Shown here piece by piece: positions 12,652 to 16,831 of a stretch of 64,000 nucleotides of DNA. Source of the DNA: Zhongshania aquimaris (GTDB lineage Bacteria > Pseudomonadota > Gammaproteobacteria > Pseudomonadales > Spongiibacteraceae); the NCBI RefSeq assembly GCF_019312595.1, contig NZ_JAHWDQ010000001.1:1164788-1228787 (forward strand), given 5' to 3'. The position numbers and the translations under genes were made by a program. The first letter of the stretch is position 1, and each line of letters starts with the position of its first letter. The notes beneath the pieces were generated by a model, which was given only the letters and a program-made list of their open reading frames with translations, was not told the origin of the DNA and did no database searches.

Positions 12652-13740
12652 GTGATTCATATAATCCTTGGCACCAAAGCTCAACTGATTAAAATGGCGC
12701 CAGTCATGGTTGAACTCAATACACAAGGCACCCCTTACAGGTTTATCTCTACAGGCCAGCACCGTGACACGATGAACGAGCTTCTGGACAACTTCGGCTT
12801 GAGAAGGCCTGACTACACTCTTTACAACGGCAAAGACATTACCTCAATTCTGAGCATGACAGTGTGGGCAAGTCGAATACTGTTAATGACCTTATTCAAA
12901 AAGCAGAAAATTTTTGGAGAACAAAAAAAAGGCATTGTTCTCGTCCATGGAGATACGTTTTCAACCCTGCTGGGTGCCTTTATGGGGAAATTCGCGCGGT
13001 TACTTGTCGGCCATGTCGAATCAGGACTCAGATCGCACAACTGGTTCCATCCTTTCCCCGAAGAATTGATCCGCGTTCTGGTATTCAGGCTCAGTGACTA
13101 CTACTTCTGTCCAGACGACAACGCGATAAAAAATGTATCCAAGTATCCGGGCGCTAAAATCAGCACAGGCGCCAATACCCTGCTCGATGCGCTGCGCTTG
13201 GCGGAAAAAAACATAGATGCAAGCGAGGTAGACATTCCACAAGAAGCCTACGCGGTAGTATCGCTCCACCGATTTGAAAACATACGCAACGAACGCGCCC
13301 TAATGCGAGTAGTAAATTTGATTGAAGAGAGTGCAAAACATAACATCAAACTATTGTTTATCCTGCACAACCCCACAGAAAAGAAACTCAAAAAATTAGA
13401 CCTCTACAATCGGCTAGCAAACAATCCGAACATTGAACTACGCCCACGCTACGACTACTTTAAGTTTATTAAACTAATTAAGCACAGCGAATTTGTGATT
13501 AGTGATGGCGGTAGTAACCAAGAAGAATGCGCCTATCTAGGAAAGCCAACACTGCTCTTTAGAAAAACTAGTGAACGAGGAGAAGGACTCGGAAGCAACT
13601 GCGTAATTAGTGAATACAGCCTCAAGATCGCATCAGAATTCTACGATAACTACAAAAATTACAAAAAGGAGCCACAATTGCTGAAGCATCAACCGAGCAC
13701 CGTGATCGTTAAAAATCTTAGACAAAAATCCAACCCCTAA
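12652..13740 (+). CDS. UDP-N-acetylglucosamine 2-epimerase family protein
   Basis: Resembles WecB/WbpI-type non-hydrolysing epimerases that convert UDP-GlcNAc-type sugars to ManNAc-type ones. The product is 362 residues long from a GTG start with AAGGAC upstream. Counterparts of the catalytic acids are visible: D101 in VHGDTFS, E123 in HVESGLRS and E137 in PFPEEL. H206 in SLHRFEN matches the active-site histidine. The usual N-terminal GTRPE is changed to GTKAQ, so the UDP-contacting arginine is lysine. The GSNQEE substrate loop near the C-terminus is kept. It probably acts with the preceding dehydrogenase. The substitution leaves exact activity uncertain. Confidence 0.8.
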   Translation: MIHIILGTKAQLIKMAPVMVELNTQGTPYRFISTGQHRDTMNELLDNFGLRRPDYTLYNGKDITSILSMTVWASRILLMTLFKKQKIFGEQKKGIVLVHGDTFSTLLGAFMGKFARLLVGHVESGLRSHNWFHPFPEELIRVLVFRLSDYYFCPDDNAIKNVSKYPGAKISTGANTLLDALRLAEKNIDASEVDIPQEAYAVVSLHRFENIRNERALMRVVNLIEESAKHNIKLLFILHNPTEKKLKKLDLYNRLANNPNIELRPRYDYFKFIKLIKHSEFVISDGGSNQEECAYLGKPTLLFRKTSERGEGLGSNCVISEYSLKIASEFYDNYKNYKKEPQLLKHQPSTVIVKNLRQKSNP

Positions 13741-13879: not shown

Positions 13880-13905
13880 AAAAAAAAGGGGGGGCTCCCC
13901 GAGAA
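13880..13905 (-). terminator. Rho-independent terminator of the acyltransferase gene
   Basis: Read on the minus strand directly after the stop codon, a GGGG-AGC-CCCC mini-hairpin is followed by CCC and eight T residues. The stem is short but the T-run is strong. The convergent gene ends at 13740. Confidence 0.5.
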
Positions 13906-15864
13906 TTAATTTGGCCAAACAACGTCTTTTAATAACATTATCGAACCTTCAGGAGTCAAATGCCCATAGTCTCTATAGAGGAAAATATCACCTATTTTGG
14001 TTTCACATCGTTCTGCACTACATAATTTTTTGTACAGCCAAACAACATCAACACTTGCCCTCTCTGCAATAGCACCAACCAATTGATGGCTTAATGTCTG
14101 CCGGACGGAACTTGCCGACATGGGGATAGTACAACCATCCAAAAAAGTAACTAAGCCTTCAAGAGCTCGCATATAACAGCCGTGTATATCAACTGCATCT
14201 TCAGTTTGAGGAGTTGGGCTGACAATGACGACTTTTTTACCAGCCTCTTCGATCTTTGATATCACATCAACCCAGCGCGCAATGAAGTCACTTCGATCAA
14301 ACCTCTTCAGTTGACCTTCCGAGAGAAACATATTCCCATCATCCCCATAGTAACTAAACTGAGATGAAATAATAACCAAATTTATACTACTTTTATTAAG
14401 TATATAATCCAATGCTTTTTGATTATTAGAATTACAAAGTCGAGCACGCGCAAGAGGGAAATCTTTATTAACATGAGAATATTCCAAAGCCGGAGCACAA
14501 CTCGACATGGTAAGTTGCACCAAGTACTTCTCGGCCTGCAAGACGCCAGCGACAATGTGCATAGCGTAGCTATCCCCCCAAACGGCCACAGTCGGATTTT
14601 CTGCCGTCCGGCATTCTCCCTCCAGCACTCCATCTACAAAGGAGCCAAATCTACATTTTCTAGACAACCCGTAATTTCGCCCCGGCGTGCCGGCAGCATC
14701 TGAAGACAGTGAATATTTTTCATATTGCTTTTCGATTGCGACAGGTATTACACCGCACGATAGTGCTGCGAGCGAAATCAGCCCAATCGCAACTCGCTTT
14801 CTCCCAAATATAATATTTTTAAATTTACTCTCAATGTACTTATACTGTAAACCACCTAGGAGTATGCTCACTACAACAAGAGAAAAAGAAAAATATATAG
14901 GTATGCGTCCCAAAAAGAAAAGGGACGAAAACACAAACAATGGCCAATGTATTAGATAAATCGAATATGACCAATCTCCAATTTTGCAAAGACTTCGTAT
15001 GATAAAATTATTCGGAAATATCTGCCTCTTATCCAATAAAACCATACCTGTAATGAACACTACCAAAACAGAGTCAAAACCAGGACTCTGCAGCGATATA
15101 CTCTTAAAACACAAGCATATCAAAAAAAAAGAAAGCACGCCCTTCACAAAGAAAGGGAATCTCCCCCCCCCTTGCGACTGAAAATAAACTGCGCATAACG
15201 ATCCAAAAAGCATTTCCCAAGCTCTATAAGGCAATAAATAGAATGCCCAAGCTTGGTTATCAATAGAGTTTTTTATTGGCAGGGCATTTATCTGATCACT
15301 TACTACAAGAAAACACATCCCTAGGCTTATTAGAAAAAGCATTGCCAAAACAAAGGTTCTTTTCGCAGAGAAAAAAAACAAAATTGCTGGCAAAATAAAG
15401 TAAAACTGCTCTTCCAACGAAAGAGACCATATGTGCATCAACGGTTTGGTATGAGCTGCGTTTTCGAAATAACCCGATTGAAACGGAAGAACTAAATTCT
15501 CCGAAAATAAAACAGCCGCCCAAACTTGATTAACAAAATCACCCCACTGCTCATTTGTCAGGAAAATAGGCGCCAGAGAGATAGTGACCAATAGCGTACT
15601 AAAAAAGGCTGGAAGAAGCCTTCTCGCACGACGCGAGTAAAACCCAATAAACGAAAAGTTCCCGGAATCCAAGGATCGCACTATTTGTAGGGTAATTAAG
15701 TATCCCGATATAACAAAAAAAATATCAACGCCTAGATATCCGGCATCAAAGATGCCAAGCTGAGTGTGATAAAAAACAACGACAAGGACAGCAATGGCGC
15801 GTAAAATTTGAATATCAACTCGAGTTACTGCGTTTTGTAAATTTACTCTGTCTAATGTACTCAC
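13906..15864 (-). CDS. OafA/YrhL-type membrane acyltransferase with C-terminal SGNH domain
   Basis: Likely O-acetylates a surface glycan. The 652-residue product has an N-terminal acyltransferase-3 domain of about ten spans. It begins RVDIQILRAIAVLVVVFYHT and has the family R/H motifs, GYLGVDIFFVISGYLI and FYSRRARRLLPA. After about residue 400 a periplasmic SGNH hydrolase-like domain follows, with GDS in VAVWGDSYAMH and a late D-x-x-H in DYGHLTPEG. The start is GTG 15864, only weakly supported. It lies 46 bp downstream of the Stealth gene. The frame crosses a G9 and a T9 tract (15122-15171), so the gene is poised for phase variation and currently reads as ON. Confidence 0.88.
   Translation of the reverse strand: MSTLDRVNLQNAVTRVDIQILRAIAVLVVVFYHTQLGIFDAGYLGVDIFFVISGYLITLQIVRSLDSGNFSFIGFYSRRARRLLPAFFSTLLVTISLAPIFLTNEQWGDFVNQVWAAVLFSENLVLPFQSGYFENAAHTKPLMHIWSLSLEEQFYFILPAILFFFSAKRTFVLAMLFLISLGMCFLVVSDQINALPIKNSIDNQAWAFYLLPYRAWEMLFGSLCAVYFQSQGGGRFPFFVKGVLSFFLICLCFKSISLQSPGFDSVLVVFITGMVLLDKRQIFPNNFIIRSLCKIGDWSYSIYLIHWPLFVFSSLFFLGRIPIYFSFSLVVVSILLGGLQYKYIESKFKNIIFGRKRVAIGLISLAALSCGVIPVAIEKQYEKYSLSSDAAGTPGRNYGLSRKCRFGSFVDGVLEGECRTAENPTVAVWGDSYAMHIVAGVLQAEKYLVQLTMSSCAPALEYSHVNKDFPLARARLCNSNNQKALDYILNKSSINLVIISSQFSYYGDDGNMFLSEGQLKRFDRSDFIARWVDVISKIEEAGKKVVIVSPTPQTEDAVDIHGCYMRALEGLVTFLDGCTIPMSASSVRQTLSHQLVGAIAERASVDVVWLYKKLCSAERCETKIGDIFLYRDYGHLTPEGSIMLLKDVVWPN
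15122..15171. repeat. Homopolymer tracts A9 and C9 within the acyltransferase gene
   Basis: On the plus strand nine A (15122-15130) and nine C (15163-15171) lie within 50 bp. In the coding strand these are T9 and G9. The G9 encodes three glycines (SQGGGRF) in a loop between membrane spans. Gain or loss of one base would truncate the protein near its middle and remove the SGNH domain. Confidence 0.9.
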
Positions 15865-15910: not shown

Positions 15911-16831
15911 TTACTCACCAAAATATTTTTCAAGAAAGCGCGAGACGAGCCAGTCCCGCAGGGATGAACAAAACTTAATATCATTTACTTCATTAAGGCA
16001 AAATACTTCATATTTTCGACGCCGTATTCCCGACACAGGACTCAAAAGAAGCATGCCAAGAGGATCACCTATATCCACATATCGACAATCTATAGACCCA
16101 AGCACACTAGCACCAGTACTAAGCCCGTAATAAGCTTGCATTGTAGTTGCTACAGGAAGATCGTCTCTCGACTTGAACTGACTCTTTCTGGTAGTAACGA
16201 TCTCATCAACGTACCTCTCCTCAATTTCACACATTATCGATCGAAGCATAGGAAAAGGCGCGTGATGAAGTTTTTTATCAGGGACCACTCCAAAATCTCT
16301 TAAAATTAGCTCCCCCGCCCTCGCCGCTGCATAATCAACAGGCCTTCTATCGTCTCCCCAATATTTAATATCATGGCGCGTTAGAAATACTTTTGGGCGC
16401 CCACTACTATCAAAGAATTTGTCGAAACCAACCGGCCGTGCAACGAATACATCGTCATTAAAATAGATAAATTTTTCTGACAATCCATCTATCCTATGCA
16501 AACAGCTCTCAATCGCTCGAGAATTAAAACAAGGAAGACACTTTTCATCCGGAAATATTTCCTCATGACTGACGGGAAGAATGTTGTACTCTTCCAAACG
16601 CTCTGGCAAACGGCAATTAGAGACGATAAATATGTTTCTGACCCACGGACAGTATTTTCTGACAGCGGCAACTGAATAAACCAGCTCCCCTCTATTTCGA
16701 TATCTTGCTCCGGAGTTAACGCTGCTGTGCCATAAATCCTTGCCCTCACTGCGCAATGACGCATTTTGATGAAGAATACGCCAAGCTGGGTCGCTGCTAT
16801 TGACCCAAGTAAATACGACATCTATCTCCAT
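15911..16831 (-). CDS. Stealth family sugar-phosphate transferase
   Basis: Stealth proteins transfer hexose-1-phosphate from a UDP-sugar to a glycan, forming phosphodiester links; relatives include capsule polymerases and animal GlcNAc-1-phosphotransferase. The 306-residue product shows the conserved blocks in order. CR1 is DVVFTWVNSSDPAW near the N-terminus and CR2 runs from RNRGELVYSVAAVRKYCPWV to EKFIYFNDDVFV. CR3 surrounds HHAPFPMLRS, and a short CR4-like CLNEVND is near the end. It starts at ATG 16831 and faces a divergent glycosyltransferase. The predicted product is a phosphate-linked surface sugar; donor and acceptor are unknown. Confidence 0.88.
   Translation of the reverse strand: MEIDVVFTWVNSSDPAWRILHQNASLRSEGKDLWHSSVNSGARYRNRGELVYSVAAVRKYCPWVRNIFIVSNCRLPERLEEYNILPVSHEEIFPDEKCLPCFNSRAIESCLHRIDGLSEKFIYFNDDVFVARPVGFDKFFDSSGRPKVFLTRHDIKYWGDDRRPVDYAAARAGELILRDFGVVPDKKLHHAPFPMLRSIMCEIEERYVDEIVTTRKSQFKSRDDLPVATTMQAYYGLSTGASVLGSIDCRYVDIGDPLGMLLLSPVSGIRRRKYEVFCLNEVNDIKFCSSLRDWLVSRFLEKYFGE

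Follow-up and report, generated by a model that had tools for sequence, protein, structure and literature searches.

The nine-guanine run of a surface-glycan acyltransferase gene in Zhongshania aquimaris is probably an incidental, somewhat mutable tract rather than an evolved switch

Homopolymer switching of glycan acylation is known mainly from mucosal pathogens and, where O-antigen genes are concerned, from Vibrio cholerae. Within the AT3 family of acyltransferases, pglI carries a poly-G tract, and the repeat of Haemophilus influenzae oafA is reportedly a tetranucleotide. Of the confirmed variable repeats of Neisseria meningitidis, homopolymers of eight or more mostly varied in four or all five of the genomes resequenced (PMC5084427), and in 41% of carriage isolate pairs phase variation altered pglI, a meningococcal gene listed as encoding an O-acetyltransferase (PMC5445459). 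H. influenzae oafA is described as a phase-variable enzyme of the AT3 type that adds O-acetyl groups to a surface glycan, oafB as switched epigenetically with signature sequences upstream (PMC9558356), and Salmonella oafB as an AT3-SGNH fusion (PMC9833829). In V. cholerae O1, A8 and A9 tracts in wbeL and manA gave phage-resistant variants, although the wbeL tract did not differ among the 37 genomes that were compared (PMC3441752), and the Escherichia coli K1 prophage enzyme NeuO performs phase-variable capsule O-acetylation (PMC3046976). Since the wbeL tract gave variants while being the same in 37 genomes, constancy across assemblies is no proof against switching.

We analysed a window, the whole stretch of 64,000 nucleotides from the Zhongshania aquimaris genome, in which an AT3 acyltransferase gene carries runs of nine G (G9) and nine T (T9) on its coding strand. 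The features referred to below are the following.

13906..15864, minus strand: AT3-SGNH (OafA/OafB-like) acyltransferase gene, GTG start, 652 aa, intact frame
14857..15816, minus strand: Acyl_transf_3 domain (PF01757), residues 17-336, Pfam 92 bits (cut-off 31)
13930..14655, minus strand: SGNH domain (PF19040), residues 404-645, Pfam 133 bits (cut-off 27)
15163..15171, minus strand: G9 run, codons 232-234 (GGG GGG GGG) of the acyltransferase, reading C9 on the plus strand
15122..15130, minus strand: T9 run, codons 245-248 of the acyltransferase, reading A9 on the plus strand
15371..15378, minus strand: T8 run inside the acyltransferase gene
15715..15722, minus strand: T8 run inside the acyltransferase gene
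15911..16831, minus strand: Stealth-type gene, directly upstream of the acyltransferase on the same strand
12652..13740, plus strand: UDP-GlcNAc 2-epimerase gene, convergent neighbour of the acyltransferase

According to Pfam, the product fuses an N-terminal Acyl_transf_3 domain to a C-terminal SGNH domain and thus has the architecture of AT3-SGNH enzymes of the OafA/OafB/OatA type. Residues R15, H33, G430-D431-S432, D632 and H635, which from established knowledge we take to be the conserved N-terminal Arg and His and the SGNH catalytic residues, do not change across six aligned proteins (its own counted), and because of this invariance the acyltransferase looks, judging from its sequence, like a functional enzyme. 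The Stealth-type gene is probably co-transcribed with it, and the other neighbours encode a UDP-glucose/GDP-mannose dehydrogenase, a family-2 glycosyltransferase and a CDP-glycerol glycerophosphotransferase. These neighbours mark a surface-polysaccharide locus, in agreement with the surface acyltransferase proposed by an earlier sequence-only reading. The acyltransferase probably O-acetylates a polysaccharide of the cell surface, its presumed substrate. GC content is 0.37-0.42 at 14 to 18 kb of the window versus 0.54-0.55 at 9-11 kb (1-kb steps), and we infer a foreign origin for the low-GC glycan locus.

Compared with the described systems, the acyltransferase resembles pglI in being an acetyltransferase of a surface-glycan system (for pglI, Neisseria protein glycosylation), but unlike pglI, where variation has been observed, it is known from a single genome. 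It is an AT3 enzyme of a surface glycan like H. influenzae oafA, from which it differs in that the repeat of oafA is, reportedly, a tetranucleotide rather than a mononucleotide. Salmonella oafB has the same AT3-SGNH architecture but is switched epigenetically, not by a coding repeat. V. cholerae O1 wbeL and manA are likewise surface-polysaccharide genes with mononucleotide tracts of eight to nine in an aquatic gammaproteobacterium; there, however, the tracts are poly-A, the enzymes are others, and the variants were isolated by phage selection. A literature search on phase variation in Zhongshania returned no match. If the switch were real, it would be a further case of the already known phase-variable glycan acyltransferases.

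Direct reading confirmed that both tracts lie on the coding strand, spanning exactly 15122-15171, and that G9 is in frame as three glycine codons, all of them GGG. The frame is open now, as had been noted. A gain or loss of one base at G9 makes the frame stop at 239 or 253 residues; the sequence-only reading had placed this cut before the SGNH domain, which holds but understates the loss, as both stops fall within the AT3 domain and remove part of it together with the whole SGNH domain. In form, G9 thus resembles a homopolymer contingency locus, a coding-region tract of about eight bases or more whose change in length truncates the product, and the premise that tracts of this length can act as switches agrees with what the sources cited above describe for other bacteria. 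Both tracts had also been assigned to a loop between membrane spans. In a simple hydropathy scan, residues 170-188 and 238-256 come out as spans, which leaves G9 between spans but puts T9 within the second; the topology around the tracts is rough, because residues 206-228 fell below the threshold of the scan. The coding strand also allows pairing of the G run with a CCCTT just downstream (AAGGG...CCCTT, window 15153-15173), which appeared as terminator-like in a scan that found six such structures in total against 3.7 expected, the pairing being possibly due to chance. A run of A8 followed by G7 lies at window positions 13880-13894, in the gap where the epimerase and acyltransferase genes converge and just beyond the acyltransferase stop.

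That the length of nine is an assembly or consensus error is very improbable: homopolymers are well known to be error-prone on some platforms, but an error would usually break the frame, and G9 keeps the 652-codon frame with both domains intact. The T9 run needs no special explanation. A/T runs of nine or more came up in 41-61% of codon shuffles of the acyltransferase gene, so that T9 alone carries no meaning, and in the 100 homologous loci described below there was an A/T run of nine in one (L140) and of eight in 18, so that T9 is no kept feature either. T9 was accordingly dropped as independent evidence of switching. The same figures bear on slippage during expression, by which polymerase or ribosome at T9 or G9 would yield a minor truncated product from unchanged DNA. 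We regard this as improbable, if less so than an assembly error: non-standard decoding was inferred at an A7 of V. cholerae wbeL (PMC3441752), and the acyltransferase gene has two T8 runs besides T9, but T runs this long are what codon shuffling predicts and are also met, as counted, among the homologues.

According to the sequence-only reading, the gene is likely phase-variable, that is, a true simple-sequence contingency locus in which slipped-strand mispairing at G9 (possibly T9) switches the acyltransferase OFF and ON; switching would alter surface-glycan acylation, for instance against phages. Precedent speaks for this: among confirmed variable repeats of N. meningitidis, homopolymers of eight or more mostly varied in four or all five of five genomes (PMC5084427), AT3 genes switch elsewhere in H. 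influenzae oafA (PMC9558356) and meningococcal pglI (PMC5445459), and A8/A9 tracts vary in V. cholerae O-antigen genes under phage attack (PMC3441752). The genome itself argues against it. No G run in the 4.25 Mb exceeds nine, and this length is reached at four sites: one in a PQQ dehydrogenase gene, one in the acyltransferase gene and two, spaced by 281 bases, in an intergenic repeat, so that only two of the four are within ORFs of at least 150 aa. About 12 would be expected from a first-order Markov model of the window, and about 17 in coding sequence from a codon shuffle scaled up from the window, an estimate inflated by the acyltransferase gene being itself part of the shuffled sample. With four seen against about 12-17 expected, there is no genome-wide excess of G9, and the idea of a genome rich in G runs was rejected. 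Distinct sites of eight or more G (overlapping matches merged) number 17 against about 51-53 expected, and long G runs are under-represented genome-wide.

The genes in which these runs occur are mostly ordinary ones. Fourteen of the 17 sites lie inside ORFs of at least 150 aa, only one of which, the acyltransferase, is a surface-glycan gene; the other 13 include no glycan family. Pfam assigned these to RecO, PQQ dehydrogenase, response regulator, AMP-binding ligase, GHMP kinase, histidine kinase, RPE65-type oxygenase, CTP transferase, amidohydrolase, (type III) pantothenate kinase, MerR regulator and AAA/PRTase-CE protein families, and one (L015) had no Pfam match at 1e-6; in the amidohydrolase ORF (L034) the run is upstream of the domain and covered by a second long frame as well, and in one case (L017) the coding strand carries the run as C. 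A contingency genome would be expected to have more long tracts than chance predicts and to have them mainly in surface genes; this genome shows neither. Separately, the minus strand of the respective contig carries 15 of the 17 distinct sites, which would be an odd skew for arbitrarily oriented contigs, and the two C9 runs of the intergenic repeat (L003:1300-2000; G000:C1, about 1915250-1915950) have near-identical surroundings.

Taken by itself, the window contains one coding G9 where codon shuffling expects 0.26, and a G/C run of nine or more appeared in only 0.6% of shuffles of the acyltransferase gene with window codons, both of which count against an incidental run. With the gene's own codons the figure is 6.7% (5.9% for G alone), and GGG makes up 14 of its 42 glycine codons versus 151 of 1480 in the window. 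Other long-run genes gave codon-shuffle chances of 0.0035 (NAD kinase), 0.0008 (HI0933-like), 0.003 (thiolase) and 0.11 (Hda-type). As ordinary genes thus scored similar or smaller values in this comparison of 13 chosen genes, a low shuffle value is no mark of a switch.

No close orthologue of the acyltransferase was found in searches of the genus, family, order and wider contigs. With its own genome counted, matches were obtained in six of 18 genus genomes (the remaining rows have 28-34% identity, and one, L013, is a second AT3 gene in the window genome), in eight of 21 family genomes and, at E <= 1e-60, in seven of 390 genomes of the order. A wider contig scan with the single protein as query confirmed none of 76 candidates; with the six-protein alignment it gave at least 591 candidates, 573 of them confirmed, and the best 80 of at least 573 confirmed homologues, which were kept, are at most 38% identical to the acyltransferase. 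These 80 and the 20 loci from genus, family and order make up the set of 100 homologous loci, representing 99 distinct genes, as L006 and L180 have identical proteins and are one gene; four further pairs have more than half of their 9-mers in common. All 100 gave a frame, three of them under 550 aa (L192, L039, L040).

G9 was found nowhere in these 100 loci (99 distinct genes, all distant, the best 80 of at least 573 included), which also weighs against a contingency locus. The longest G/C run was 4-7 in 99 of them and eight in one (L197); the G9 of the acyltransferase is therefore the longest G/C run across its own gene and all 100 loci, a point against an incidental run. In the 20 genus, family and order loci the position of G9 falls in an unconserved loop of varied length and residues, and the aligned codons hold no run of over four G. 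An RxWE motif is present in 97 of 101 proteins (own counted), and in the 34 codons after it a G/C run of six or more occurs in five of the 97 and three or more Gly in a row in two, the acyltransferase itself and L136. The latter, top-ranked among the matches listed by the wider contig scan, has a Gly-rich stretch at the G9 site with no run over three bases, and therefore writes its glycines in varied codons. The sequence-only reading had named varied glycine codons in homologues as evidence against a switch, and this was found in part, in the unconserved loop and in L136. Retention of the tract at the same place in related genes, which would support a switch without being strictly required, was not seen: the AT3-SGNH family as a whole does not keep G9, and strains of this species could still do so.

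Taken together, the lack of a genome excess, the occurrence of G8-G9 runs mostly in ordinary genes and the absence of G9 from all 100 distant homologous loci do not bear out the word likely. We consider an evolved switch possible but on balance unlikely, and favour, as the likelier of the two and with some confidence, the explanation that G9 is an incidental, somewhat mutable run. Its most likely source is the gene's frequent use of GGG codons, which by chance would have produced the run in an unconserved loop, with slippage perhaps adding to its length; selection for switching would not have been involved. As is true of a G9 in general, its length should change by a base more often than average sequence mutates, and rare OFF mutants are therefore to be expected. 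If the tract truly varies, homopolymer switching of glycan acylation would be extended to a free-living marine genus, with phage pressure suggested as the driver; if it does not, it illustrates how too much can be read into a G9 in a surface gene, as the same genome has such runs in RecO and pantothenate kinase family genes.

Long G runs are also present elsewhere in the genus, with at least one G9 in 18 of 18 genomes. The 17 siblings hold 79 runs of nine or more (47 of nine, 22 of ten, four of eleven, five of twelve and one of thirteen). Of these, 31 are G in the sense direction of an ORF of 150 aa or longer, 14 are C when read that way and 34 fall outside such ORFs. Together with the two from the window genome this gives 33 coding-strand runs; the Pfam scan took in 27 of the 31 sibling runs, leaving out L103, L110, L068, L056 and the 14 C rows, so that four of the 33 were not scanned. 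Glycan genes account for four of the 33: the AT3 gene described here, a GT1 glycosyltransferase (L041), a gene whose upstream half is a GT2 glycosyltransferase (L060) and a capsule-synthesis gene (L083, Capsule_synth match at E 3.8e-6). TonB receptors account for two, with the same four of 33 unscanned, and runs of G9-G10 are in open frame in a sibling NAD kinase, Hda/DnaA-type protein, D-Tyr-tRNA deacylase, thiolase and others. The window genome has eight GT2, eight GT1 (two under the cut-off) and two AT3 matches. The binomial chance of three or more of 33 in glycan genes is about 0.0005 with 3900 genes assumed, and at a 2-3% background 0.03-0.08 for three or more and 0.005-0.02 for four or more, values that depend on a background only estimated and on gene classes picked after the hits were seen. 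Glycan genes thus carry such runs across the genus above a rough background, which speaks for contingency and against an incidental run; because the classes were chosen once hits were seen, we treat the surplus as a lead only.

Some frames in the genus are interrupted at such a run, which likewise speaks for contingency. In L121:1501-1511 (G015:C1, about 171245-171255) the frame of a D12-class DNA adenine methylase is interrupted at a G11, and this methylase is possibly phase-variable; in L076:1501-1509 (G001:C1, about 386419-386427) the start and signal-peptide frame of a TonB receptor is, by eye, offset from the receptor frame at a G9. The frame of the second TonB receptor (L109, G10) is open, and that of L044 (G9), which has no confident family, is possibly broken at the run. 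A mechanical scan flagged a frame switch at the run in 13 of 96 rows, some of which are probably adjacent genes, for example around ccmB (L100). From such cases it might be argued that Zhongshania, as a free-living marine genus, keeps a poly-G contingency gene set (the acyltransferase, glycosyltransferases, a capsule-synthesis protein, TonB receptors and a DNA methylase) in which slippage switches surface structure and DNA methylation, probably against phages and outside an animal host; we think this doubtful. Mismatch repair (MutS/MutL) should lower slippage, and the presence of its genes counts against contingency: all 18 genus genomes gave a MutS match and 17 of them a MutL match, the window genome having both and the one MutL miss being a genome 84% complete. 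The break in L060 counts against it as well, being upstream of the tract and not at it.

The candidate of a GT2 gene broken at its own G9 was therefore rejected for L060; in L060:950-2022 (G003:C11) the GT2 is split over two frames upstream of G9, with no long homopolymer at the break. In three further loci (L099, L107 and L125), frames that by eye resemble TonB receptors have G/C runs of 9-12 some 0.2-1 kb upstream.
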